Shown: positions 5,104 to 30,419 of the stretch, in pieces
Layout: every line of letters begins with the position of its first letter
How positions within the stretch are numbered: position 1 is the first letter of the stretch
NCBI GenBank assembly: GCA_903821905.1
Contig: CAIJMQ010000026.1
Coordinates: 1-36,501, forward strand
Direction of reading: 5' to 3'
Length of the DNA stretch: 36,501 nucleotides
Source of the DNA: an uncultured bacterium
GTDB lineage: Bacteria; CAIJMQ01
The notes under the pieces: generated by a model
What the model was told of the DNA's origin: nothing
The model's database searches: none
Seen by the model: the letters and a program-made list of their open reading frames with translations, nothing else
Made by a program: the position numbers and the translations under genes

Positions 5104-8100
5104 TTAGAAACTGAAACCGACACCAGCACTTGCCGTATAATCGTTATCGCAGTAACCTACACCTCCGGTTAAGGATATAGGACTATCGGGTATAATATAT
5201 TTGACGCCGGCTGCAATTGCACTCTGTCCTTCATAATTTCCATAACCCACACCTATCGAAAGATTTTTACCGGGAACAGGGTCTGGAATTGCGCTCAAAG
5301 CCGCAGCGGAAGCAACACCGGCATAAGCTGTCTTTAACTGTCTATAATTTACTGCGTCATAATCGTGTGAACCGTCTTTTATACCTGTTACTCTTGTCGG
5401 ATCGCCCTTAGAATTTGCGAATGTTGCACTGTGGTCACTAAGAGTAAGCGACGTTGAGTGTATTCCACCAGTCAGGGTTGTTGTATGAGTTGTCTCATTA
5501 ACAGTCAAGCCATGACCGTCGTTTGTTAACACTGATGCCACATTAGCTGTAGTAGTAACTGCAGCACCACCTGTCACACCAAGAGAACTACTGGTTGTGC
5601 CGATAATTGTATTAGTTGCGCCTGTGACAAGATTGGTTGATGTTCCGACATTACCCATAGTATTCATTGAATTAGCCGTAGTACTACCTATATTATTGTT
5701 AAACCCTTGTATATTATTTGTACCCGTAGTGGCATTGGCTGTCAGGTTATTTATTCCGTTTAGGCCTGTAGCTGAAATGGTATTCGACTGATTGGCTGCA
5801 TTGGCGGTCATAGTGTTACTACCCAGCGTTGCAGCTATATTGTTATTACCCGTTGCTGCCGTGATTGCATTATTACCTGTAGTGGCTGTGACTGTGTTGC
5901 CTGTGCCACCGGTTAGAGCGTTTGTCGTGGCGGCGTTAATAACATTACTAGCCGCAGTTGATGTCATAGTATTGTTACCAGTAGTTGCCGTGATTATGTT
6001 GCCTGTGCCGCCGGTAATCTGATTTTGACCGGCTGTTGCTGCTATAGTGTTATTGCCTGTGGTTGCTGTGACTATGTTGCCCGTGCCGCCTGTCAGCTGA
6101 TTTTGAAGAGTGGCACCCACAATATTGTTTGTGCTAGCGGTAAGTGTATTAGTTGTGCCGGTAAGGGTGTTCACTGATGTTCCGGCATTACCCATAGTAT
6201 TCACTGAATTAGCCGTAGTACTACCTATATTATTGTTAAACCCTTGTATATTATTTGTACCCGATGTGGCATTGGCTGTAATGTTGTTTATTCCGTTTGT
6301 GCCTGTAGCCGAAATGGTATTTGATTGAGAAGCTGCATTGGCAGACATAGTATTACTTCCCACCGTTGCTGCTATAGTGTTATTACCTGTAGTTGCTGTG
6401 ACTATATTGCCTGTGTTGCCTGTAATCTGATTTTGACCGGCCGTTGCCGTCATCGTATTGTTGCCTGTAGTTGCCGTGATTATGTTACCTGTGCCACCGG
6501 TTAGAGTGTTTGTCGCAGTGGCTTGCATAAGGTTTGTGCCAGCTGTACCAGTTGCCAGCAGTTGATTTGATACATTGCTGCTCCCGCCGATAACTACAGA
6601 GGTTGCTGTTCCGCTATTGGTGGCATTAATAACAGTAATTTCAGGATTTGCTGCTGTGCCGACACCCAGAGTTGCCTGAGCATCCGCCATTGTCCAGGTG
6701 GAAGAATTGGTTCCACCCGTTAAGGTCGTAGTGGTCGCGCCAATGGTCAATCCATGACCCGATGTACCCACTGTATTAAGCAAACTCACAGTGTTGCCAT
6801 CCGCGCTGATGTCCAATCCAGCGCCACTGGTGTTGTTCATCAATGTAATAGCGCCACTGTTGTTGACGGTCAGGCCATTGCCATTGGACATCGCGGTCAA
6901 GGCTGTAGTTGTCGTGTTCAGACTGCCGCCGCCGGTCGTTGCAATGGTGTTGGATGTGGTACCAGTCATCGTGTTAGTTGCGCCGGTAAATGTGTTTACT
7001 GATGAACCGGCATTACCAACAGTATTCACTGAATTAGCCGTAGTATTACCTATATTATTGTTAAACCCTTGTATATTATTTGTACCTGTAGTGGCATTGG
7101 CTGTAATGTTGTTTGACTGGCTAGCTGCAAGAGCAGACATAGTATTACTTCCTGCCGTTGCTGCTATAGTGTTATTGCCTGTGGTTGCTGTGACTGTGTT
7201 ACCAGTGCCGCCGGTTAGAGCGTTTGTTGTGGCGGCGTTAATAACGTTAATAGCCGCAGTTGACGTTATAGTATTATTACCGGTAGTTGCTGTAACTACG
7301 TTACCTGTGCCACCGGTTAGAGTGTTTGTTGTAGCTGCGTTCATAGCGTTACTACCCAGCGTTGACGCTATAGTGTTATTACCCGTTGCTGCCGTCATCG
7401 CATTGTTGCCTGTAGTTGCCGTGATTGTGTTACCAGTGTTGCCGGTAAGCTGATTTTGACCTGCTGATGCAGCTATAGTATTGTTACCAGTAGTTGCTGT
7501 GACTGTGTTGCCAGTTCCACCGGTTAGAGCGTTTGTTGTGGCGGCGTTAATAACGTTACTAGCCACAGTTGACGTTATAGTATTATTACCGGTAGTTGCC
7601 GTGACTACGTTACCTGTGTTGCCTGTAATCTGATTTTGACCGGCTGATGCAGCTATGGTGTTGTTGCCTGTAGTTGCCGTGACTGTGTTACCAGTGCCGC
7701 CGGTTAGAGCGTTTGTTGTGGCGGCGTTCACAACGTTACTAGCCGCAGTTGATGTTATAGTATTATTACCGGTAGTTGCTGTGACTACGTTGCCTGTGCC
7801 ACCAGTAAGCTGATTTTGAAGAGTGGCATTCTCGATATTGTTGGTGCTAGCAGTAAGCGTATTAGTTGAGCCAGTGAGCGTGTTTGCCGATGAGCCCGCA
7901 GTGCCGATGGTATTGGTTGCTCCGCTGGCAGTAAGGTTTCCGGAAACGCCGAGAGTGCTACCGAGTATAGCTGCCCCACTAGTGTTTAGTGTAGTTACTC
8001 CTGACACCGCGCCCGCGTTTGTAATACCGCCACTATTAGCGTTCAAACTGCCTACACTTGCCGCTCCTGAAGCAGTAATTGTTGTGGCTCCGGATATTGC

Positions 8101-8676
8101 ACCAGCATTGGTAATGTTGCCACTATTAGCGTTCAAACCGCCTACACTTGCCACTCCTGAAGCAGTAATTGTTGTGGCTCCGGATATTGCACCAGCATTG
8201 GTAATGTTGCCACTATTAGCGTTCAAACCGCCTACACTTGCCACTCCCGAAGCAGTAATTGTTGTGGCCCCTGATATCACGCCAGCACTTGTAATGCCGC
8301 CGCTATTATTATTAATCCCATTTAAGGTAGAACTACCAGTTACATTCAGAGTACCGTTGACCGTGGTCGCATCGCCGCTATCGCCCAAGATCGTATTACC
8401 AGTCGTAGTTAATGTGGTGACTCCGCTCACTGCGCCGGCGTTTGTAATGCCGCCGCTATTATTATTTAATCCTCCGGTTACGCTGGCGCCGTTGGTTACG
8501 GTCAAACTGCCGTTGACCAAGGTCGTATCACTACTGGCATCGCCCAAGGTTGAATAACCGGTTACAGTCAGATGACCAGTGACATCCACATCAGCCGCCA
8601 TGACTTGTGTCTGCATCATAGCCATTCCAAGAATAAGTAAAAAAACACTCACTAAACATTTCATAAACACCTTCAT
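5104..8676 (-). CDS. YadA-type trimeric autotransporter adhesin with extensive Asn/Thr/Gly-rich repeats
   Basis: 1190 aa; signal peptide MKVFMKCLVSVFLLILGMAMMQTQVMA; passenger of GNTVTATTGNNTI-type repeats; C-terminus VTGIKDGSHDYDAVNYRQLKTAYAG...ALSAIPDPVPGKNLSIGVGYGNYEGQSAIAAGVKYIIPDSPISLTGGVGY...AGVGFSF matches the YadA anchor layout with terminal aromatic residue. Confidence 0.9.
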   Translation of the reverse strand: MKVFMKCLVSVFLLILGMAMMQTQVMAADVDVTGHLTVTGYSTLGDASSDTTLVNGSLTVTNGASVTGGLNNNSGGITNAGAVSGVTTLTTTGNTILGDSGDATTVNGTLNVTGSSTLNGINNNSGGITSAGVISGATTITASGVASVGGLNANSGNITNAGAISGATTITASGVASVGGLNANSGNITNAGAISGATTITASGAASVGSLNANSGGITNAGAVSGVTTLNTSGAAILGSTLGVSGNLTASGATNTIGTAGSSANTLTGSTNTLTASTNNIENATLQNQLTGGTGNVVTATTGNNTITSTAASNVVNAATTNALTGGTGNTVTATTGNNTIAASAGQNQITGNTGNVVTATTGNNTITSTVASNVINAATTNALTGGTGNTVTATTGNNTIAASAGQNQLTGNTGNTITATTGNNAMTAATGNNTIASTLGSNAMNAATTNTLTGGTGNVVTATTGNNTITSTAAINVINAATTNALTGGTGNTVTATTGNNTIAATAGSNTMSALAASQSNNITANATTGTNNIQGFNNNIGNTTANSVNTVGNAGSSVNTFTGATNTMTGTTSNTIATTGGGSLNTTTTALTAMSNGNGLTVNNSGAITLMNNTSGAGLDISADGNTVSLLNTVGTSGHGLTIGATTTTLTGGTNSSTWTMADAQATLGVGTAANPEITVINATNSGTATSVVIGGSSNVSNQLLATGTAGTNLMQATATNTLTGGTGNIITATTGNNTMTATAGQNQITGNTGNIVTATTGNNTIAATVGSNTMSANAASQSNTISATGTNGINNITANATSGTNNIQGFNNNIGSTTANSVNTMGNAGTSVNTLTGTTNTLTASTNNIVGATLQNQLTGGTGNIVTATTGNNTIAATAGQNQITGGTGNIITATTGNNTMTSTAASNVINAATTNALTGGTGNTVTATTGNNAITAATGNNNIAATLGSNTMTANAANQSNTISATGLNGINNLTANATTGTNNIQGFNNNIGSTTANSMNTMGNVGTSTNLVTGATNTIIGTTSSSLGVTGGAAVTTTANVASVLTNDGHGLTVNETTHTTTLTGGIHSTSLTLSDHSATFANSKGDPTRVTGIKDGSHDYDAVNYRQLKTAYAGVASAAALSAIPDPVPGKNLSIGVGYGNYEGQSAIAAGVKYIIPDSPISLTGGVGYCDNDYTASAGVGFSF
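5600..7880 (-). repeat. Coding long-period repeats in the adhesin passenger (GFNNNIG block plus GNNTI/TGGTGN arrays)
   Basis: Block containing attattgttaaacccttgtatattatttgtacc occurs three times (near 5690, 6230, 7060). Flanks align from 5639 and 6176 over about 200 nt, offset 537 bp (179 codons). Confidence 0.85.
8041..8280 (-). repeat. 90-bp (30-aa) tandem repeats within the adhesin N-terminal region
   Basis: agcagtaattgttgtggctccggatattgc begins at 8071 and 8161, with a variant at 8251. 8071-8160 and 8161-8250 differ at one base. Protein unit GATTITASGVASVGGLNANSGNITNAGAIS. Confidence 0.95.
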
Positions 8677-15382: not shown

Positions 15383-16747
15383 ATGAAAATAAATCCGCAA
15401 ATTTTCCGCCAATATGACATCAGAGGATTGGTTGGAAAAGATTTAACCAAAGCTACAGCAAAAGATATAGGAAAAGCGATAGGTACTTATCTTAAAAAAT
15501 ACGGTAAAGATATAGTAGTAGGCAGAGATAATCGCAAAAGTTCTCCTTTCTTAGGCGATGCACTCATTGAAGGTATTTTAGCTACCGGTTGTGATGTAAT
15601 AGATGTAGGAACACTTCCAACTCCTGTTCTTTATTTTTCTATACACCTATACTCTCAAACAGGCGGAGTAATGTTAACCGGAAGCCATAACCCGCCGGAA
15701 TATAACGGGTTCAAAATCTGTAAAGGGTTAAGTTCTATTTATTGAGATGAAATACAGAAATTAAGAGAAATTATTGAAAATAACAGTTTCCAAACAGGCA
15801 GTGGCAAGCTCATTAAAAGAGACCCGAAAAAAGATTATGTAGAATTTATTATTAAAAATATAAATATCAATCCAAACCTAAAAATCGTAATTGATTCAGG
15901 CAACGGTACAGCTGGTTTTATAATTCCTTCTTTAATGAAAAAATTAAATCTTAAACCTTCCTATATTTATTTGGAACCTGACGGTAATTTCCCAAACCAT
16001 CTGCCTGATCCAACTATACCCGAATATATGGAAGATCTGATAAATGAAGTTAAAAAGCAGAACGCAAATCTCGGTATTGGTTATGACGGTGACGCAGATA
16101 GAATAGGAGTAGTTGATGATAAGGGAAGAATGGCATGGGGAGACAAACTGCTTTGTTTATACGCAAGAGAAATACTCTCTCGACATCCTAAAGCTAAAAT
16201 AATCATGGACGTCAAATGTTCACAAGCAACTGTTGAATATATCGAGAAATATGGCGGTGAGGCAATAATGTGGAAAACGGGACATTCTTTAATCAAAGAG
16301 AAAATGAAAGAGACAGGAGCTTTACTTGCCGGAGAAATGAGTGGACACATGGTTTTTAAAGATAATTACTTGGGTTTTGATGATGCTATTTTTGCTTCCT
16401 TAAGACTTCTTGATATACTTTCAAAAAGTGATAAGAAACTGTCAGAACTATTTAATGAAATCCCTTCATATTACTCCACGCCTGAAATAAGAGTAGATTG
16501 CCCGGAAGAAAAAAAATTCGAAGTTGTAGAAGAATTAAAAAAATATTTCAAGAAAAGATACAAAACAATAGACATAGACGGCGTGAGGATTTTATTTGAA
16601 AATGGCTGGGGACTGATAAGAGCATCAAATACTCAACCTATTCTAGTTTTAAGGTTTGAAGCCAAGACAGAGAAAGAGCTAGAGAAAATAAAGAAAGAAG
16701 TAAAAGATAAACTAAAAGAATACCCATTTCTTACCTCTGAAATATAA
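15383..16747 (+). pseudogene. Phosphomannomutase/phosphoglucomutase (AlgC/ManB-like) interrupted by an in-frame TGA at 15743-15745
   Basis: ORFs 15383-15745 and 15935-16747 share one frame. Bridging sequence DEIQKLREIIENNSFQTGSGKLIKRDPKKDYVEFIIKNININPNLKIVIDSGNGTAGFIIPSLMKK is open and coding-like. TGSHNPPEYNGFK (phosphoserine loop), GYDGDADRIGVVD, GEMSGH, RASNTQPILVLRFE all present. Confidence 0.9.
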
Positions 16748-19935: not shown

Positions 19936-20880
19936 ATGCGCGCCTTACCAGCTTTAATACAAGTTTCGTTTCAAAATATAATAAGACAATCATTTTTCTA
20001 TCTTGCTATTCTAGGGGCATATCTATTTATAGTATCCACTCCTGCTTTTACAATGTTTACTTTTTTTGACGCTGAAAAGTTATTGTTAGACATGAGCATG
20101 GCTACTATTCTCCTTGTGGTATTATTATTAAGTGTTCTTGCTACTTCTTCTATAGTTGGTGGAGAAATAGAGGAAAAAACAACCACTTTGCTTTTGAGTA
20201 AACCTTTGTCCCGTTTTACCTTCCTATTAGCAAAATTTTTTGCAGTATCATTGGCATTAATTCTCACCTTCATACCTCTTACTTGCGCTCTTATAATGAC
20301 ATTAAAGATGGGAGTTCCAGAAGCAACTTGGAGTGATGTTAAATACTGGACGCTTTGGTTTGAATTCTTACCTTTAATAGGAGCAGCAATAGTAGCTGCT
20401 TTAGCAAATTACTATGCAGATAAAAATTTTGCTTCTAGTTTTATAATCTTGTTGAATATATTCATCATTATATCTTTGGTTGTTCTCAGCTTTATGGCAA
20501 AAGGAACACTGAAAATAAATCTATTTTACCCCACTACACTTATATGGATGGCTGGCATTCTTATATGTCCCGTTGCCTCACTCTTGGCATTGAAAGGCAA
20601 AGTGTTCTTCACATTAACATTTTCTTTCTTGATTTTTGCCCTAGGTCTTACATCTAACTGGCTTTTTAGCAATATATTACATAATGTCGGTATAAGAATA
20701 GTCTACTCAATCATACCTAATTTCCAGGTGTTCTGGATAGAAAATTTCTGGACAAAGAAAGAACCTGTCCCATTTTCTTACTTTTGGGATGTGTTAAAAT
20801 ATGTTGTCCTTTACTGTATGGGAATGATATTTTTAGCTTGGAGTATATTGGAAAAACGAGAGGTATCAGGTGGAAGATAA
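19936..20880 (+). CDS. ABC-2 type transporter permease
   Basis: 314 aa, about six hydrophobic segments; STPAFTMFTFFDAEKLLLDMSMATILLVVLLLSVLATSSIVGGEIEEKTTTLLLSKPLSRFTFLLAKF is typical of ABC-2 permeases. Confidence 0.85.
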   Translation: MRALPALIQVSFQNIIRQSFFYLAILGAYLFIVSTPAFTMFTFFDAEKLLLDMSMATILLVVLLLSVLATSSIVGGEIEEKTTTLLLSKPLSRFTFLLAKFFAVSLALILTFIPLTCALIMTLKMGVPEATWSDVKYWTLWFEFLPLIGAAIVAALANYYADKNFASSFIILLNIFIIISLVVLSFMAKGTLKINLFYPTTLIWMAGILICPVASLLALKGKVFFTLTFSFLIFALGLTSNWLFSNILHNVGIRIVYSIIPNFQVFWIENFWTKKEPVPFSYFWDVLKYVVLYCMGMIFLAWSILEKREVSGGR

Positions 20881-22780
20881 AAATAAATTAAAAAGAGGGT
20901 TCCAGTTAGCTTTAGGTGCTTCTCTATTTCAGATTGTCCTTACCCTTATATTTTATTTTCTATATACACGCTTAAACTCACCTCTGTTATTACTCCAAAC
21001 ATTCCACGTAGGACTCGGAGTGCCTATTTTTGCTATTCTCATGCTCCTTTTTCATCAAAGATACAGAGAAATCCTAGAGAAAGAGGAAGTAGAAGAAATT
21101 ACTAAAAGAGAAGGGAGAATCTTCCAAGGTGAAGAGAATACCATTCTTATATCCCGTATTAGATTATTACAAACCGAGAAATGGGTAATTCCCATTTTAG
21201 GCTTTATTATCTTATGTTCATTGGTTTATATTCCATTTCGAGCAATATATTATTTCCGCGGTAAACCAATAACCTACGGACCCAACCTAGCTATCTGTTT
21301 CCCGCTCATTGGGTTAACCTTCTTTATATTTTTGTTCTCTCGTTATATTTTAGGCATGTCACGCGAGAAACAACTAAATGACCTACGTGCTATAGGGACA
21401 TATCTGGGTGTTAATGCTCTTTTCACTCTTCTTATAGCTATCTCTATCGCTTTTAGATTCTTCGGGCTTGTTAGAATAGAATGGGTTGTATTCTACATTC
21501 TTAGTTTTATACTTATTGTCAGCGGACTGGAATACCTTCTTAATCTACTAATATCTTTCTACCGCACCATAGAAGTCCCAAAACGTCTAATATTTGATTC
21601 CAGAATCTACTACTTAATATCTACACCTGAGGAAGTCATACCATCTTTTTCAGAGATAATTGACTACCAATTTGGGTTCCATATCACTCAGACTTGGTTT
21701 TATCAATTCGTAAAGAACAGAATAATACCTTTGTTTATGCTTTGGGGATTTTTGCTCTATATTCTTACTTCTATTGTAATCGTGCAACCTTATGAAAGAG
21801 CATTTATAGAATTTTTAGGCAAGCCCATAGGAGAAGGTAAAATTTTTGGACCAGGATTACATATAAAATTTCCTTATCCCATAGGCAAAGTAAAAATCTA
21901 TGATGTTGATAGAATTAAAAATATTCGCGTAGGAGTAGCCGGGAAAGAAGGAGAAAGAATCTTGTGGACGGAAAAACATTATGAAGAAGAATTCAACTGG
22001 ATGATTGCCAGTCAAGAAACTACCACTCCTACATCTTTAGCTGCAACTTCCCGCTCCTCTTCATTAACAACAGGCGAAACAGTACCTGTAAACTTTTTAG
22101 CGGGAGCAATATGGGTTTATTATAAAATTAACCCTTCTCATTTATATGACTATGCATATAAACATTCTGAACCAGAAAAACTCCTTGAAGCAATTGTATA
22201 CAATCAGTTCACTAAGATGGTTATGAGTATCGACTTTTTTGACATAATGAATATAAAACGATTACCTCTGTCAAATGACCTCAAAGAAAAAGTCCAAGAG
22301 GAAATAGATAAAAAAGAGTTAGGGGTAGAAATAATCTTGGTCAGCTTAGAAGGTATCCATCCTCCCGTAGACGTAGCTTCCAGTTTTGAAAAAGTTGTTG
22401 GTTCTATGGAGAAAAAAGAAGCTTCTATCCTTGGAGCACAATCTTATTCTAACAAAGAATTAACTCTAGTAGACTATGAAGCATCAAATATAAAAGTTGA
22501 GGCAGAATCTTACAAGTTGGTCAGAACCTTAGAATCAGAAGCAAGAAGTGAAGAATTCTTGAAAAAACTTGAAGCTTATGAAAAAAACCCGCTTATTTTC
22601 AAGTATCGTTACTACCTTAAAGCTCTTGATGAAAGTTTAATCTCTCCAAAGAAATATATCGTTATATCTCCAGATAACGATAGAAATGTAACCATTTTAA
22701 ATATGGAAAAAGCTTCTTTACCAGATATTCTTTCCCTCGGGTTGGAAGCAGAAAAAGGGAAAAAGGAGATTGGAAAATGA
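20870..22780 (+). CDS. Polytopic SPFH/band-7 (HflK-like) protein
   Basis: 636 aa; about seven hydrophobic segments, then VIVQPYERAFIEFLGKPIGEGKIFGPGLHIKFPYPIGKVKIYDVDRI, an SPFH core start. GTG start overlaps the previous CDS by 11 nt. Confidence 0.85.
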   Translation: MEDKNKLKRGFQLALGASLFQIVLTLIFYFLYTRLNSPLLLLQTFHVGLGVPIFAILMLLFHQRYREILEKEEVEEITKREGRIFQGEENTILISRIRLLQTEKWVIPILGFIILCSLVYIPFRAIYYFRGKPITYGPNLAICFPLIGLTFFIFLFSRYILGMSREKQLNDLRAIGTYLGVNALFTLLIAISIAFRFFGLVRIEWVVFYILSFILIVSGLEYLLNLLISFYRTIEVPKRLIFDSRIYYLISTPEEVIPSFSEIIDYQFGFHITQTWFYQFVKNRIIPLFMLWGFLLYILTSIVIVQPYERAFIEFLGKPIGEGKIFGPGLHIKFPYPIGKVKIYDVDRIKNIRVGVAGKEGERILWTEKHYEEEFNWMIASQETTTPTSLAATSRSSSLTTGETVPVNFLAGAIWVYYKINPSHLYDYAYKHSEPEKLLEAIVYNQFTKMVMSIDFFDIMNIKRLPLSNDLKEKVQEEIDKKELGVEIILVSLEGIHPPVDVASSFEKVVGSMEKKEASILGAQSYSNKELTLVDYEASNIKVEAESYKLVRTLESEARSEEFLKKLEAYEKNPLIFKYRYYLKALDESLISPKKYIVISPDNDRNVTILNMEKASLPDILSLGLEAEKGKKEIGK

Positions 22781-23694
22781 AAGAAACAAGAATGTGGAAT
22801 CCTTATACTTTCTTTTTAGGTTTTATAATTTTTGCTTTACTTGTTCTGTATTTAGTTGCTTTTCAGATCCAGGTAGGAGAAATGGCAGTCGTAACTACTT
22901 TTGGCAATCCCGGAAGAGTTATAGATAAAGCTGGACTATATTGGAAAGCCCCAACGCCAATTCAGAAAGTTGACAGGTTTGACGGGAAAATACAGGTCCT
23001 GGAAAGTAAAATGGAGGAAACTTATACCCAAGATGGGAAAAACATAATACTCATAACTTCTACCTTCTGGAAAATAAAAGACCCATTAAAATTCTTTAAA
23101 GCCGTCGGGAATAACGATGAAGCAAAAAAGAAACTGATTTCAATCGTCAGAAATTATGAGAACGGTATCATTGGGACTTATGATCTTTCTAACTTGATAA
23201 ATGTAGACAAAAATTTACTGAAGCTGGACGAGATTCAGGGTAAAATCAAAAATTTATGTTCCAAAGAAGCTGAAGAAACTTACGGTATAGAGATACAAGA
23301 AGTAGTTTTTAAAAGAATGCAGTTTCCCCAAGAAGTTACTCAAGATGTATTTGAGAGAATGAAAAAAGAAAGAGAAAGAATTGCAGAAAAATACTTGTCC
23401 GAAGGAGAAGGTATGGCAAGCGATATAAAAGCTAAAGCTGATGCTGAAAAAGAAAAGATATTAGCTGAAGCTAAAGCAGAAGCCAAAAAAATAAAAGGGG
23501 AAGGAGATGCTGAAGCAGCCCAGTACTATAATGTCTTTTCTAAAAATGAAGACCTGGCAATTTTCTTGAGAAAATTGGAATCTTTAGAAACCACGCTGGC
23601 TAAGAACTCGACTGTAATTCTTGATTATCGTACACCGCCTTATGATTTGCTAATGGGCAAGTATTTAGAGAAAGGAACCGATAGTGGAAAATAA
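22777..23694 (+). CDS. HflC-like SPFH protein
   Basis: 305 aa; single N-terminal TM, VGEMAVVTTFGNPGRVIDKAGLYWKAPTPIQKVDRFDGKIQVLES, ERIAEKYLSEGEGMASDIKAKADAEKEKILAEAKAEAKKIKGEGDAEAAQYY; ATGA overlap. Confidence 0.92.
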   Translation: MKETRMWNPYTFFLGFIIFALLVLYLVAFQIQVGEMAVVTTFGNPGRVIDKAGLYWKAPTPIQKVDRFDGKIQVLESKMEETYTQDGKNIILITSTFWKIKDPLKFFKAVGNNDEAKKKLISIVRNYENGIIGTYDLSNLINVDKNLLKLDEIQGKIKNLCSKEAEETYGIEIQEVVFKRMQFPQEVTQDVFERMKKERERIAEKYLSEGEGMASDIKAKADAEKEKILAEAKAEAKKIKGEGDAEAAQYYNVFSKNEDLAIFLRKLESLETTLAKNSTVILDYRTPPYDLLMGKYLEKGTDSGK

Positions 23695-24727
23695 AGAATA
23701 TCAACCTGCTTTTGAATATTTTTCAAGAGCTCTGCGTTTGAGTTTCAGTGCCCTAAAAATTCTCGTAGGTGGCATTGCACTTTATTACCTCGTTTTCTCC
23801 GGGTTATTCACTGTAAAACAAGACGAGGTAGCTATTATTCTACGCTGGGGTGGAATTGCAGGAACAGGGGAAGAACGTATACTGAAACCAGGATTCCATT
23901 GGTCATTTCCAGAACCTATAGATAAAATAATTAGAATACCAGTCAAAAAAGTAAAATCCTTGGAAATAAAAGAATTCTGGAGTGCTGACTTGGACTTAGA
24001 CAGCACCCAAGTTCCACCTCCTGAATTTTTAATCCCTTACCTACATGGTTATTCTATTACAGGAGATAACAATCTAATTCACATTAACTTACAAGCCTCT
24101 TATAACATTACTGAACCTATATCTTATGTTACAAATGTAGAAGATGAAGAAAAACTCATCACATCGGTTGTTTCTAACGCTGTAATAGAAACCGTAAGTA
24201 ATTTCCAAGTTGATGAAGCACTGCGTACACAACTAGAAAAAATGAGTCGTTTAATTCTACAAAAAGCTCAAATTAAACTGGACACATTAAATTCAGGCAT
24301 AACGTTAAATGCTATTTATATAACCCGTTCGCTTCCGCCTCTTAAAGTAGCAGAAGCTTTCAAAAAAGTGATATCTGCCGAACAGACAAAGAGTTCTCGT
24401 ATCAATGAAGGAAAATCTTATGCAAATCGTGTTGTTAATACTGCCAAAGGTGATGCTTCAATAATATTGGCTGAAGCCGAGACATATAGGAGTAACGTCA
24501 TTAATGAAACAAGTGCCGATGCTAAGTATATACAGGAACTAACGCAAAAATTTGAAACAGGTAGTAAAGAATTAGATACTTATCTTGCTTATTTCTATCA
24601 GGAGAAAATGGAAGAGATCCTTATTAAATTAGAAGATAAATTTATTCTCCAAACACCAATTAGCGGAAAAGAAAATGAATTCAGAATAATCCTTGGAAAA
24701 GATACGAAATGGGAAGGTGCTCAATGA
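23684..24727 (+). CDS. HflK-like SPFH protein
   Basis: 347 aa; single TM then VKQDEVAIILRWGGIAGTGEERILKPGFHWSFPEPIDKIIRIPVKKVKSLEI; GTG start overlaps the previous gene by 11 nt. Confidence 0.9.
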   Translation: MENKEYQPAFEYFSRALRLSFSALKILVGGIALYYLVFSGLFTVKQDEVAIILRWGGIAGTGEERILKPGFHWSFPEPIDKIIRIPVKKVKSLEIKEFWSADLDLDSTQVPPPEFLIPYLHGYSITGDNNLIHINLQASYNITEPISYVTNVEDEEKLITSVVSNAVIETVSNFQVDEALRTQLEKMSRLILQKAQIKLDTLNSGITLNAIYITRSLPPLKVAEAFKKVISAEQTKSSRINEGKSYANRVVNTAKGDASIILAEAETYRSNVINETSADAKYIQELTQKFETGSKELDTYLAYFYQEKMEEILIKLEDKFILQTPISGKENEFRIILGKDTKWEGAQ

Positions 24728-26592
24728 ATGAAGTAGAACTCTATCACCCTCTTCATACCCACGAAGAAGAAGGCCAGTTAGTTAGACGTCTTTTAATTAC
24801 TCTTGCGGGTGGGATTTTAATTTTTAATGCATTTATTTCTATTCGCATTTTCCCCAATTCTCCCGCAATTAGCGAACTAAGCGCTTTAGCAGGGGCACTT
24901 CTGCTAGGACTCCCAATGATAGTCAAATCTTTTAAAGGCTTTTTTACAGGCAGGCTTGAACTGACTGAACTTGCAAGCATAGCAGTTTTGGCTTGTATTG
25001 CATTGGGAGATTATCGGACTGCTGGAGTAGTAGCTTTCATCCTAATATTAGGAGAGCTTCTAGAACACCGGACAGCTCTTGGAGCACAAGAAGCTATAGA
25101 ATCACTCTTGAAACTCACCCCTCCCATGGCACATCTTGTTAAAAACGGTGAGGAAGAAGATATTCTTGTAAAAGAATTAAAACAAAAAGACATAATCCGA
25201 ATAAAACCGGGAGAAAACGTACCAGCTGATGCTGCTATCACTCAAGGTGAAACAATAATAAACGAAGCTTCTATTACCGGAGAATCTTTACCTGTAGACA
25301 AAAGAAAAGGGGACCACATATTTGAAGGAACAAACAATATAACCGGAGCCATTTTAGCTCAAGTGGAAAAAGTCGGAGAAGATACGACATTGGGAAAAGT
25401 TAAACACTTAATCCTACAAGCTGAAAAAACACGTATCCCCATTATTTCTTTAATAGAGAAACATATTTACTGGTATATACCTGTTATACTTATGATTGCA
25501 GGTTTAATACTTTTCTTTACAAGAGATGTATCCCGTGCCATATCTTCAGTAATTATTGGTGTCCCGTGTGCTCTCCTTTTAGCCACCCCCACAGTTATCA
25601 TAGCTGTTCTTTCTGTGTCTGCTAGAATGGGAGTAATGATAAAAGAGACTCGTAAAATTGAAACGGCTGAAAGTATAAACGCTGTTATTTTTGATAAAAC
25701 GGGCACATTAACAACAGGAGAATTAAGAGTTACTTCTATTAATCCCATAAGAGAAATTTCACCTGATAAATTTATCTACTATGTCGCAACATTAGAAAAA
25801 CATTCTCTGCATCCTGTAGCAAAAGCCCTGAAAGAATTGGCCATTAAAGCACGTATAAAATTGTCTGAACCGGAAGAATTTAAAGAAACAGGCGGCAGAG
25901 GAGTAAAAGGGAAAGTAGATGGTAAAAAGCTTACAGTAGGAAGGCAATCATATCTTGAAGAAAATAACATAAAAGTACCTGTCCAAGAAAAAGAATCTGG
26001 GAGTATTCTACACATAGCTATGGACGGACAATATTACGGATGGATTCAGGTTGAAGACCAGATGCGCCTTGAAGCGAAAGAAACAACTGAGATGTTAAGA
26101 AAATTAGGGATAAAGAAACTTGTAATGCTCACCGGAGATAAAAAAGAAGTAGCGGAGAGGATCGCTAAAGAATCAGGATTTGAAGAAGTAATTGCCGAAT
26201 GCTTACCAGAAACCAAACTGGAAATTGTAGAAAGTCTACAAAAAAAAGGTTATCGTGTTTTAGTAATAGGAGACGGTATAAATGACGCACCTGCTCTTGC
26301 AGCAGGAGATATTGGAATAGCAATGGGAGCAATGGGTAGTGATGTGGCTATTAACAGTGCATCTGTTGCTTTAATGTCTAACGATCTTAGAAGAGTCCCA
26401 TTCTTCATATCTCTGTCTCGGCTTGCTCATCGTATAATTTACCAGAACTTAGCATTGGGTGGGGCATTTGTCTTGGTTGGTCTTACTCTGGCAAGTTTGG
26501 GTATTGTTAATCCCATTGTAGCAGCTCTTTATCATGAGATAGGTTCACTTGTTGTCATTCTGAATAGTGCCAGAATAGTGAAATTTGAATAG
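24724..26592 (+). CDS. P1B-type (heavy-metal-family) P-type ATPase with VPC instead of CPC motif
   Basis: ATG at 24724 (track start 24709); TGESLPVDK, VIIGVPCALLLATPT, FDKTGTLTTGE, HSLHPVAKAL, MLTGDKKEVAERIAKESG, VIGDGINDAPALAAGDIGIAMG; no N-terminal HMA domain. Confidence 0.93.
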   Translation: MNEVELYHPLHTHEEEGQLVRRLLITLAGGILIFNAFISIRIFPNSPAISELSALAGALLLGLPMIVKSFKGFFTGRLELTELASIAVLACIALGDYRTAGVVAFILILGELLEHRTALGAQEAIESLLKLTPPMAHLVKNGEEEDILVKELKQKDIIRIKPGENVPADAAITQGETIINEASITGESLPVDKRKGDHIFEGTNNITGAILAQVEKVGEDTTLGKVKHLILQAEKTRIPIISLIEKHIYWYIPVILMIAGLILFFTRDVSRAISSVIIGVPCALLLATPTVIIAVLSVSARMGVMIKETRKIETAESINAVIFDKTGTLTTGELRVTSINPIREISPDKFIYYVATLEKHSLHPVAKALKELAIKARIKLSEPEEFKETGGRGVKGKVDGKKLTVGRQSYLEENNIKVPVQEKESGSILHIAMDGQYYGWIQVEDQMRLEAKETTEMLRKLGIKKLVMLTGDKKEVAERIAKESGFEEVIAECLPETKLEIVESLQKKGYRVLVIGDGINDAPALAAGDIGIAMGAMGSDVAINSASVALMSNDLRRVPFFISLSRLAHRIIYQNLALGGAFVLVGLTLASLGIVNPIVAALYHEIGSLVVILNSARIVKFE

Positions 26593-26620
26593 GGAATTAA
26601 AAACCAACATATATTAAACT

Positions 26621-27481
26621 ATGGAAGAATTAGTTAAACTGCAAGAAGTAACCAAGGCTTTTAAAGACTTTTGGGGTAAATCAAAATCTTTAGCAGTCAA
26701 AAATCTATCACTATCCGTAGAAAAAGGTGAAATTTTCGGACTGCTAGGGCCTAACGGTAGCGGTAAATCCACTACACTCAAATTAATACTTGGACTTTTG
26801 TACCCTAACAGAGGAAGAATAGCTGTTTTGGGTAAACCCCCAGGAAACAATACTGCCAAACAATTCATTGGCTATCTGCCGGAAGAAGATTACCTTTATT
26901 CTTATCTTAATGGCAGGGAAACATTGGATTTTTATGGAAAAATATTCAATATCCCATCAAGAGCAAGAAGAGAAAGAATAGATTTTTTGATTGATTTATT
27001 AGGGATGAAAGCATACCAGAGACGCCCTGTAGGGGAATATTCAAAAGGTATGGCAAGAAGAATTGGGCTTGCTAGTGCTCTAATAAACGACCCAGACCTA
27101 CTAATTCTAGATGAACCAACCAACGGCATGGATCCAATAGGAACCAGAGAAATGAAAAATCTTCTTCTGGAACTCAAAACAAAAGGTAAAACAATAATCA
27201 TCTCTACGCACCTCTTATCAGACATAGAAAGTATCTGTGACCGTATTGGTATTCTATACCAGGGAGAATTTATAGCAATAGATAAAGTAGATAAATTACT
27301 TTTACCATACAAGGGTGAACATCATCCTCTAGAGAACTTCTTTATAGATAAAATACAACAAGAAAGAGAAAAAAGAGACAATAAGAAGAAATTGGAAATT
27401 TCAAAAGAAAAAGAAGAAACCGTTTCTGTAAAAAAGTCAGACATAGATCAGGAACTCCTTAATAAACTACTCAAAAAATGA
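26621..27481 (+). CDS. ABC transporter ATP-binding protein
   Basis: 286 aa; LLGPNGSGKSTTLKLILGLL (Walker A), GEYSKGMARRIGLASALINDPDLLILDEPTNGMDP (signature, Walker B), STHLLSDIESICDRI. Confidence 0.96.
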   Translation: MEELVKLQEVTKAFKDFWGKSKSLAVKNLSLSVEKGEIFGLLGPNGSGKSTTLKLILGLLYPNRGRIAVLGKPPGNNTAKQFIGYLPEEDYLYSYLNGRETLDFYGKIFNIPSRARRERIDFLIDLLGMKAYQRRPVGEYSKGMARRIGLASALINDPDLLILDEPTNGMDPIGTREMKNLLLELKTKGKTIIISTHLLSDIESICDRIGILYQGEFIAIDKVDKLLLPYKGEHHPLENFFIDKIQQEREKRDNKKKLEISKEKEETVSVKKSDIDQELLNKLLKK

Positions 27482-27541
27482 CAAATCCAACAGGATATAA
27501 AATTAATCTTTAATTCTTACTTAACACTGAAATCAAACACA

Positions 27542-28849
27542 ATGAACCGCAGGATTACCGCAGTAACTCTTAATACCTTCCGTGATTACTTTTTTACGCC
27601 AGCTATTATTACTCTTATTGTTTTTATGTTACTAATTCCTTTCTTATGCTTTAACATGTCGGGAGACGGCACAGCAGAAGGAAAATTTAAAGTATTTGTA
27701 ACTTATTCCTTTCTTATTAGTTCCATTATTTTAACAGTAACAAACATTTCTCTCTCCTGCTCTTCAATCAGCGGCGAATGGAAAAAGAGAACTCTTCTTA
27801 TTTTAGATGTTAAACCTATCAAACGATGGGAATTTATCTTAGGAAAATGGTTGGGTATATTAGCCATTAATGTAATACTTATTATATGTTTCCTTTTAGC
27901 CATGACATTTTCTTCTATTCTCATTTCACGTAATCTAACTAGAAATTTCCCAGAATATAGGAGTATATTCACAACTGAAGCAGAATTGTTTCCTATTCCA
28001 GCGGCTAAATCATCCCCCAAGAAAACTTCTGATTTTATGTCTTTCTTAAAAATGAGTCCTGAAGTTTCTGAAGGAGAAAAGGAAACCTATGCTATTCCTC
28101 CAAGAGAAAACATGGTATGGAATTTCAAAGGTATCCGTAAATCCTCAGGTAACTTATATCTCTCTTACCGTCCCCAAACTTCCGGACCAGAAGGACAAAA
28201 TATTGCAGGCTATTGGATTGCAGGAAATCCTTCTCTTCCTCAACCTTTTGAATTACAAATAAGTTTTCCTAAAGATAAAGTCCATCGTTTACAGCTTCCT
28301 TGGGAAGCCGTAAGTGTTGATGGGGAACTCAATATTGCCTACTTAAATTTTGATCCTGCAAATATGAGCATTTTATTCCCCAGATCTGATTTTAAGATAC
28401 TTTATCCTCGAGGCAATTATTGGATTAACCTCTTAAGGGGAGGTGCAAATCTCTTAATGTTGGTGACTCTTATTTGTTCAGTGGGTATTTTTTTCTCTTG
28501 TATAGTTTCAAACTTAACAGCAATTCTTTCAACATCTATTTTAATCTCTATGTCTTATATGCATGATTTTATTGAAATAATGATAAACTCTATTTCATCA
28601 CAAATACAAACAAAAGAAACAGCAGGAATTATCCCCCATCTTTCTTATCCTATGTTAAAATTTATTGCTTTTTTTCTTCCTCCTCTAGATAAAGCATTGC
28701 CACATTCTTATATTGGCAATTTTCTACTAATACCTTCTCAATACTTGGGTTTCCTTTTTATAAGAATAATCCTTTTGGGTGCTTTACCATTATTGATTTT
28801 AGCCATAATATATTTTTCACATAGAGAATTAGGAATCCCTAATGAATAG
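27542..28849 (+). CDS. ABC-2-like permease with large soluble insert
   Basis: 435 aa; N-terminal TMs with ISLSCSSISGEWKKRTLLILDVKPIKRWEFILGKWLGI (ABC-2 signature), about 150-aa extracytoplasmic insert, C-terminal TMs. Confidence 0.8.
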   Translation: MNRRITAVTLNTFRDYFFTPAIITLIVFMLLIPFLCFNMSGDGTAEGKFKVFVTYSFLISSIILTVTNISLSCSSISGEWKKRTLLILDVKPIKRWEFILGKWLGILAINVILIICFLLAMTFSSILISRNLTRNFPEYRSIFTTEAELFPIPAAKSSPKKTSDFMSFLKMSPEVSEGEKETYAIPPRENMVWNFKGIRKSSGNLYLSYRPQTSGPEGQNIAGYWIAGNPSLPQPFELQISFPKDKVHRLQLPWEAVSVDGELNIAYLNFDPANMSILFPRSDFKILYPRGNYWINLLRGGANLLMLVTLICSVGIFFSCIVSNLTAILSTSILISMSYMHDFIEIMINSISSQIQTKETAGIIPHLSYPMLKFIAFFLPPLDKALPHSYIGNFLLIPSQYLGFLFIRIILLGALPLLILAIIYFSHRELGIPNE

Positions 28850-30419
28850 AAAACAAAAAAGTATTATTATATTTATAATTTCCCTTTTATTGTTTTACTC
28901 TTGTACTTACCCGCTTTTCCAGATACGAGAAAGATTACATCTTACTTCATCCGAAGAAGAAACCGCTCTTAAAAAACTCCCTCCTGAGCTTGTTTTTACA
29001 ACAGTGTTACTCGGCGGCTTCAGAGGAATTCTGGTAGATCTCTTGTGGCTACGAGCACAAAAACTACAGGAAGATGGAAAATACTTTGAATTAGTGCAGC
29101 TTTCCGATTGGATAGGGCTTCTTGAACCATATATACCGGCAGTATGGAAATTTAATGCCTGGAATCTTTCTTATAATGTTTCAGTGGAATTTCCTACCGG
29201 GGAAGAAAGATGGAATTGGATATACCAGGGGATTAAACTTCTAAGAGATAAGGCATTGAAATACATTCCCAATTCCGGGGAAATTTATCAAGAACTCTCT
29301 TGGATACAATTCCATAAAATTTCCGACACTCTCGATGAATATAACGCATATTATAAAACAGCTTGGGCGAAGATAATGGAAGATGCGTTTGGGGATATGA
29401 CTTTAGAAGAAATAGTCTCAAACTCTTCTTATGAAGAACTAATAAAAGATAAAAGCGTAGAAACAATAATCTCCTCTTTCAAAGAGAAACAGATAGATAT
29501 TCTAAATAACTTGGCACAAATCTCCGGGGATAATTTCGCCAAACTACCAGAAAACTTAAAAGAACTTGTCAAGAGCCCTTCTTTTAGAAAAATAGAAGCA
29601 TACTTAAGAGGAAAAAGACTCCGCGAGGAATTTAAATTAGACCCCGCATTTATGCTGGAACTGGAAAAGAAATATTTCCCTTTGGACTGGAAATCAGCTC
29701 CTGCACATTCTTTATACTGGATAGAAGAAGGTAAGCGAAAAACAAGTGACATGGGAATATTAGACTACCACAGAATGGTATACTTTTCTCTCAATCATAT
29801 AATGAAATGGGGAAAAGTAAATATAAAGAAAGTTGGCAATGAAGAAGTGCTGATGCTTTCTCCGGAATTTCAGGCTGTCCCGATTTTAAATTCTTATTAT
29901 GAAGCAACTATACAAAGTTTAGAAAAGACAGGGGAACCAACCACGGGAATAAAAAGCTCACATCTTTATTTCTTAAGTGAAGTCATAGTTTTAGCCTATA
30001 CAATGAATAATCTTCCTCTTGCACAAAAGTATTATTTATATTTGAAAGATACTTATCCTGGGGAAGTAGGTAATCTCTCTTTCCCAGAATATGTTGCATC
30101 TAGGTTTGTAACGGATCTAACTGATGCATCTATTCCTGAAATTACAGACATTTTATTCGGAATCATGTATCAAAGTTATTGGTCACTGGCGACAGGAGAT
30201 GATGAACGTTACATAGGTCTACAAGCCCTTGCAAAAGCAGCTTACGAAAGAACAGCAAAAAATCTCTCGCGGTTTCAGAAAATTTTCCCTACTTTTGATG
30301 CATTGAAACAATCAAGTCTTGATGCTTCCTTTAATATGTTACCTTTACCAATTGCCTCTTCTCTCCGCAGTCGTTTAGGCATACCAGAACCAGCACCTGT
30401 CGAAGAAAAAAAAGAATAA
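28842..30419 (+). CDS. Uncharacterised membrane-anchored, probably helical-repeat protein of the SPFH/ABC cluster
   Basis: 525 aa; N-terminal TM; LLGGFRGILVDLLWLRAQKLQEDGKYFELVQLSDWIGLLEPYIPAVWKFNAWNLSYNVSVEFPTGEERWNWIYQGIKLLRDKALKYIPNSGEIYQELSWIQFHKI looks TPR-like. 8-nt overlap with the permease. Confidence 0.8.
   Translation: MNRKQKSIIIFIISLLLFYSCTYPLFQIRERLHLTSSEEETALKKLPPELVFTTVLLGGFRGILVDLLWLRAQKLQEDGKYFELVQLSDWIGLLEPYIPAVWKFNAWNLSYNVSVEFPTGEERWNWIYQGIKLLRDKALKYIPNSGEIYQELSWIQFHKISDTLDEYNAYYKTAWAKIMEDAFGDMTLEEIVSNSSYEELIKDKSVETIISSFKEKQIDILNNLAQISGDNFAKLPENLKELVKSPSFRKIEAYLRGKRLREEFKLDPAFMLELEKKYFPLDWKSAPAHSLYWIEEGKRKTSDMGILDYHRMVYFSLNHIMKWGKVNIKKVGNEEVLMLSPEFQAVPILNSYYEATIQSLEKTGEPTTGIKSSHLYFLSEVIVLAYTMNNLPLAQKYYLYLKDTYPGEVGNLSFPEYVASRFVTDLTDASIPEITDILFGIMYQSYWSLATGDDERYIGLQALAKAAYERTAKNLSRFQKIFPTFDALKQSSLDASFNMLPLPIASSLRSRLGIPEPAPVEEKKE

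Follow-up and report, generated by a model that had tools for sequence, protein, structure and literature searches.

A clade of P1B-type ATPases linked to SPFH operons varies its M4 motif and probably carries a rewired metal site in the VPC-containing lineage

What could a P1B-type ATPase transport when the CPC motif of its M4 helix reads VPC? The question is raised by a gene of an uncultured bacterium (GenBank assembly GCA_903821905.1, contig CAIJMQ010000026.1); the whole stretch of 36,501 nucleotides that was analysed is called the window below. It is part of a 1.3-Mb draft genome; among named relatives, Ca. Ratteibacteria and a MAG carrying the label Omnitrophota are closest. The original prediction described the product as an active ATPase with an altered transport site, encoded inside an SPFH/ABC operon, that may move an atypical substrate or act as a regulator.

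The pump is a protein of 622 amino acids. Its ORF was called mechanically from 24709, while the start of homologs (MQAELYHP...) agrees with the position given in the table. The translation contains SSVIIGVPCALLLATP and, near the C-terminus, ALYHEIGSLVVILNSARIVKFE, and the catalytic motifs TGES, DKTGT and GDGINDAPAL are all present in it, as had been predicted. Pfam recognised an E1-E2 ATPase domain and a hydrolase domain and returned no match to an HMA domain; this, together with the short His-containing N-terminus YHPLHTHEEEGQ, agrees with the earlier description. The NCBIfam model for heavy-metal translocating P-type ATPases (TIGR01525) was matched with 518 bits (cut-off 346), and in a Foldseek search CopA, ZntA and sCoaT were returned first (E-values 1e-42 to 4e-40). 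Catalytic motifs, family profile and fold thus all place the pump in the P1B superfamily. The M4 signature that marks P1B subclasses (CPC, CPH, SPC or TPC) is absent from it: M4 reads VPC, with the proline and one cysteine retained, and the IGVPCA codons, predicted at about 25555-25575, occupy 25555-25572. Position 81 in M1 is T or V in the phylum and D or E in most CPC pumps; with the loss of this acid, metal entry could be weaker.

Features of the pump locus in the window, with the evidence for each assignment
Feature	Position	Strand	Basis
ABC-2 type permease (m1), first conserved operon gene	19936..20880	+	Pfam PF12730, E 7.6e-7; synteny
SPFH1: Band_7 at aa 304-521, N-terminal six-helix degenerate CDF domain (aa 1-231) without HxxxD	20870..22780	+	Band_7 E 3.6e-13
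SPFH2, HflC-like	22777..23694	+	NCBIfam TIGR01932, 155 bits, above cut-off 134
SPFH3, HflK-like	23684..24727	+	TIGR01933, 141 bits, below cut-off 159; PF01145 8.9e-21
P1B-type ATPase of the SPFH-operon clade, 622 aa	24724..26592	+	Translation, Pfam, NCBIfam, tree, Foldseek
Short His-containing N-terminus, aa 7-18	24742..24777	+	YHPVHxHEEE in sister genomes
TGES of the A domain, T185-S188	25276..25287	+	Invariant in A4; 61/63 operon pumps, TGEA in 2
VPC replacing CPC in M4, V280-P281-C282 (aa 280-282)	25561..25569	+	Translation, alignment
DKTGT phosphorylation motif	25693..25707	+	Invariant, 63/63 operon pumps
GDGIND hinge motif	26269..26286	+	GDG(I/V)ND in 63/63 operon pumps
HEIGS in M6, aa 604-608	26533..26547	+	H604/E605 align with H-E of P1B-4 HEGxT
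ABC transporter ATPase	26621..27481	+	PF00005, E 5e-31
ABC-2 type permease (m2)	27542..28849	+	PF12679, E 9.8e-9
orf525, last conserved operon gene, family not assigned by profiles	28842..30419	+	Synteny in several phyla

The predicted SPFH/ABC surroundings of the pump were borne out: three Band_7 proteins are encoded upstream, the last of their genes overlapping that of the pump, and an ABC ATPase followed by an ABC-2 permease lies downstream. Because neighbouring genes overlap or are separated by short gaps, the arrangement suggests that 19936-30419 forms a single operon. Only SPFH2 exceeds the cut-off of its profile, that of HflC; SPFH1 and SPFH3 stay below the cut-off for HflK. For orf525, no match was found in Pfam or PHROGs.

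Related operons were collected through a profile search with SPFH1 that included other phyla, and since the 97 loci examined were picked in this way, their counts are not unbiased frequencies. The common layout is ABC-2 permease, three SPFH genes, P1B pump, ABC ATPase, ABC-2 permease and the unknown protein orf525. Such operons are spread over other phyla, one named source being a rumen Clostridia MAG (L052). Three SPFH genes are present in 92 of the 97 loci; the P1B gene follows them in 54 of these 92 and sits elsewhere in the cluster in 12. At nine loci (L198, L199, L204, L209, L210, L211, L230, L232 and L190) ABC and orf525 genes are present and a P1B gene was not found in the stretch fetched; these loci keep SPFH1 (lacking HxxxD), SPFH2 and SPFH3 as well. 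As some clades thus retain the other operon genes without a pump, the pump is dispensable to the operon.

Within the phylum of the window the changed motif is fixed. An ortholog of the pump was found in all seven examined genomes of Ca. Ratteibacteria, the others being 68–85% identical to that of the window. M4 is VPC in six genomes and APC in one, and M6 reads HE(I/V/L)GS in every sequence with its C-terminus present. The orthologs sit in the same operon, which is conserved in full in L039 and L156. A sequencing error or one-off substitution was rejected, as independent genomes of the phylum share VPC and dN/dS is ~0.05 (estimated against less saturated orthologs). Close syntenic homologs with an ordinary CPC or SPC had been named as evidence against an altered site. 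None appeared among the close homologs, because the ortholog with V/A-PC and HE is fixed phylum-wide in the same operon; CPC is found in just over half of the distant syntenic homologs, and beyond the phylum the nearest syntenic rows (L163, L179, L220) are of this type.

The phylogeny proposed along with the original prediction was computed after the columns of the M4 and M6 motifs had been left out. It included paralogous P1B pumps extracted by best match from the surveyed genomes, with 60 other P1B pumps sampled. The 63 operon pumps and six further copies formed one clade (support 100), apart from pumps of the CPC/MxxSS, CPC/ADMG, CPH, SPC/HE and TPC/QE types, P1B-1, -2, -3 and -4 included. 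The window pump belongs to this operon-linked clade, and membership in P1B-4 is rejected by the tree. A survey of M4 variants in syntenic homologs, likewise proposed, gave VPC or APC throughout the phylum and nine motifs across the 63 operon pumps: CPC 36, CPT 6, CPS 5, CPG 5, VPC 5, TPC 2, CPV 2, APC 1 and CPL 1. Among the 60 other pumps only three lie outside known class signatures (YPD, GPS and GAC), and the YPD and GPS pumps fall in the operon clade. At least 12 changes of M4 state were counted in this clade; with the catalytic motifs near-invariant, the transport site thus changes and catalysis does not.

Two further sets of P1B-type pumps with unusual motifs were seen during the survey. 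In L018 and L249, M4 is GAC and an acid lies four residues past the M6 His (IHVSSE, IHVTSE); these pumps form a separate clade. Flavobacterium pumps at L047, L051 and L053 have SPA in M4 and HLLPD in M6, and the L047 pump sits among genes that resemble RND-type efflux genes by eye.

The loss of the first M4 cysteine is accompanied by a change in M6. Counted as alignment rows rather than events, an acid at position +1 or +4 from the M6 ligand occurs in 21 of 22 rows without the first Cys vs 5 of 133 rows with it. The acid is present in 18 of 18 rows of the xPC type, and all other xPC groups sampled have it beside the M6 ligand. The state of the first Cys changed at least seven times; among independent pairs the acid changed in the same way in four, in the opposite way in none (for nearly all pairings) and did not differ in two, so that with p = 0.125 the covariation of M4 and M6 is suggestive only. 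The M6 His was lost in 8 of 27 non-CPC vs 0 of 37 CPC rows, too few events for an independent-pairs test, and every such loss falls in clades without the second Cys. A His-rich N-terminus was scored in 5 of 5 Ratteibacteria pumps, 15 of 36 CPC rows and 0 of 19 rows without the second Cys.

The HEIGS element had been likened to the HEGGT of P1B-4, and at the level of individual residues this likeness stood: in the alignment, H604 and E605 fall on the H and E of sCoaT, a P1B-4 pump of solved structure, and VPC matches its SPC. In sCoaT, E658 has been proposed as a ligand of the metal, and H657 serves as a built-in counterion (PMC8880997). Since loss of the first Cys goes together with gain of the M6 acid, VPC and HE in the window probably form a metal site that was rewired, not one that is broken; as the tree gives the pump a separate clade, the pairing would be convergent with the SPC and HE of P1B-4. 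The window lineage looks rewired, while the CPG, CPT and CPV clades look more like dismantled sites, because all M6 His losses fall within clades without the second Cys, in which a His-rich N-terminus is never seen.

P1B-4 ATPases (CoaT, CtpD, PmtA; sCoaT, 7qbz) share with the pump the missing first and retained second Cys of CPC, His-Glu at the same M6 columns and the lack of a classical HMA domain; the pump differs from them in having V or A for S and HE(I/V/L)GS for HEGxT, in its separate clade and in its SPFH operon. P1B-5 ATPases (Nia) have the signature TPC with QExxD. Like the pump, they have lost the first Cys and carry Glu right after the M6 polar residue, and P1B-5-like paralogs occur in the surveyed genomes, but the polar residue is Gln where the pump has His, and they are distant in the tree. 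With P1B-2 (ZntA) and P1B-1 (CopA) the pump shares the fold, the catalytic motifs and the M4 proline; unlike them, it lacks CPC, the M6 Asp (ADMG) and MxxSS. In the alignment, neither the P1B-2 signature (CPC with M6 Asp, DxG), at whose Asp position H604 stands, nor that of P1B-1/P1B-3 (CPC or CPH with MxxSS/MxxST in M6) was found in the pump.

The neighbouring SPFH1 offers a second connection to metal export. Its N-terminus, when compared with CDF domains fused to SPFH proteins, gave a profile-profile (hhalign) E-value of 3e-11 vs 0.02–0.6 for three membrane-protein controls. The structure model of SPFH1 (pLDDT 83) returned SPFH structures first in Foldseek, then YiiP, ZnT1 and ZnT3; 3 of the 30 rows in the alignment behind the model were CDF-fused, which is a mild bias. 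Some sister SPFH1 proteins match the CDF HMM directly (best 1.6e-11, domain-only model); the SPFH1 sequence of the window alone reaches only E 0.078, and the CDF claim therefore rests on the family. An unrelated six-helix domain was rejected by the profile, HMM and structure tests with their negative controls. The HxxxD metal ligands of CDF TM2 and TM5 were found in none of the P1B-linked SPFH1 proteins. The N-terminus of SPFH1 is thus a degenerate CDF domain, with the fold and profile relation in place and the ligands missing.

In SPFH triads without P1B and ABC genes, a CDF exporter with intact HxxxD is fused to an SPFH protein (13 loci); no such intact fusion was seen at loci with P1B. With intact CDF fusions in pump-less triads and degenerate CDF domains in pump-containing ones, two unrelated exporters alternate around the SPFH triad, which suggests that a metal exporter is housed in an SPFH platform. 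The alternation gives a lead on the role of three-member HflK/C-like complexes. At L144, L148, L149, L152, L153, L154 and other loci, an intact CDF exporter is naturally fused to an HflK-like SPFH protein, and two more SPFH genes follow.

The operon resembles HflK-HflC complexes in having SPFH proteins in series, in the match of SPFH2 to the HflC model and in that of the SPFH1 model to HflK/C cryo-EM structures; it differs from them in its three SPFH members, the CDF-like membrane domain of SPFH1 and the lack of ftsH. Mycobacterial CtpC-PacL1 platforms set a precedent for scaffolds encoded with P1B pumps, as the level of the pump depends on a scaffold from the same operon, but that scaffold is PacL1 (DUF1490), not an SPFH protein, and the foci of these P-ATPase efflux platforms in M. 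tuberculosis are flotillin-independent (PMC9374683). A literature search that covered a minority of subscription papers found none that connects SPFH proteins with either a CDF fusion or a P1B operon of this kind. Nor did we find a description of the operon-linked P1B clade; the pump itself belongs to none of P1B-1 to -4 yet probably works as they do.

On balance, we lean towards a working P1B cation pump that exports a divalent transition metal through the rewired site within an SPFH platform. The site would consist of Cys282 of VPC with His604 and Glu605 of M6 and would replace the pair of cysteines in CPC; a carboxylate gained in M6 would offset the soft thiolate that M4 lost. Because the same arrangement arose separately in P1B-4 (SPC...HEGxT), we infer a likely shift of cargo from Cu+ or thiolate-bound Zn/Cd to Co2+, Fe2+, Ni2+ or Zn2+. 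The pump probably works inside a membrane platform of the three HflK/C-like SPFH proteins, although operon linkage is no proof of a complex with them, and the dead CDF-exporter domain of SPFH1 may be a relic of an ancestral fusion between exporter and SPFH protein whose place the pump took.

A change without effect on substrate, by which an ordinary Zn/Cu pump of the CPC type took up a neutral substitution, would fit the CPC of those nearest rows beyond the phylum and the tolerance of both Val and Ala. In CPC pumps both M4 cysteines are metal ligands, and VPC comes with a Glu beside the M6 ligand, an acid being found there in every other xPC group sampled, which makes this explanation improbable. 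We regard it as still less probable, indeed hardly credible, that the pump is simply a divergent P1B-4 ATPase: HE in the M6 columns of SPC-type pumps, xPC in M4 and the absent HMA domain speak for it, but the SPC rows lie elsewhere in the tree, the window pump is nested in the operon clade, alongside pumps most of which have CPC, and its motifs have no M4 Ser and read HExGS, not HEGxT.

Loss of metal transport altogether, with M4 drifting, no metal bound and the pump acting as an ATP-driven regulator or mover of other cargo for the SPFH/ABC machinery, is unlikely in our estimate. It draws on the nine M4 motifs of one clade despite conserved catalysis, on the concentration of all M6 His losses in the clades lacking the second Cys and on the absence of His-rich N-termini there. 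The regulatory half of the original prediction is weak for the window lineage, since its pumps have the second Cys, the M6 His, the His-rich N-terminus and a new Glu at a position used by P1B-4, and V/A-PC with HE is fixed phylum-wide rather than drifting; a regulator is more plausible for the CPG, CPT and CPV sister clades. Its other half, an active ATPase with an altered site, agrees with the intact catalytic motifs, the changed and lineage-fixed transport site and the SPFH/ABC operon.

More broadly, the whole P1B clade might have been captured by the SPFH/ABC machine, its site rewired repeatedly (VPC/APC with HE, TPC with E) and dismantled in some lineages (CPG, CPT and CPV without the M6 His). 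The pump would then serve a membrane-microdomain complex as an ATP-driven module, with a cargo that is new or absent, and would parallel the dead CDF domain of its SPFH partner; we put this forward as a tentative possibility, itself rather doubtful. The exporting pump with a rewired site, our preferred reading, would belong to a large and unstudied group of P1B pumps that accompany SPFH triads in several bacterial phyla; within the group, the transport site varied often on a fixed catalytic frame and the cargo probably changed. It also yields a testable rule of P1B selectivity, by which loss of the first M4 Cys and gain of an M6 acid go together.

Two features of the window lie outside the operon. 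A phosphomannomutase/phosphoglucomutase gene is split into two ORFs (15383-15745 and 15935-16747, + strand) and is one long ORF in the sister genome L039 (139-1507); the split is one of a frameshift, decay or an assembly error. On the opposite strand, a 1190-aa ORF (5104-8676, - strand) has repeated TGGTGNTVTATTGNN units and an adhesin-like C-terminus, and by eye resembles a trimeric autotransporter.
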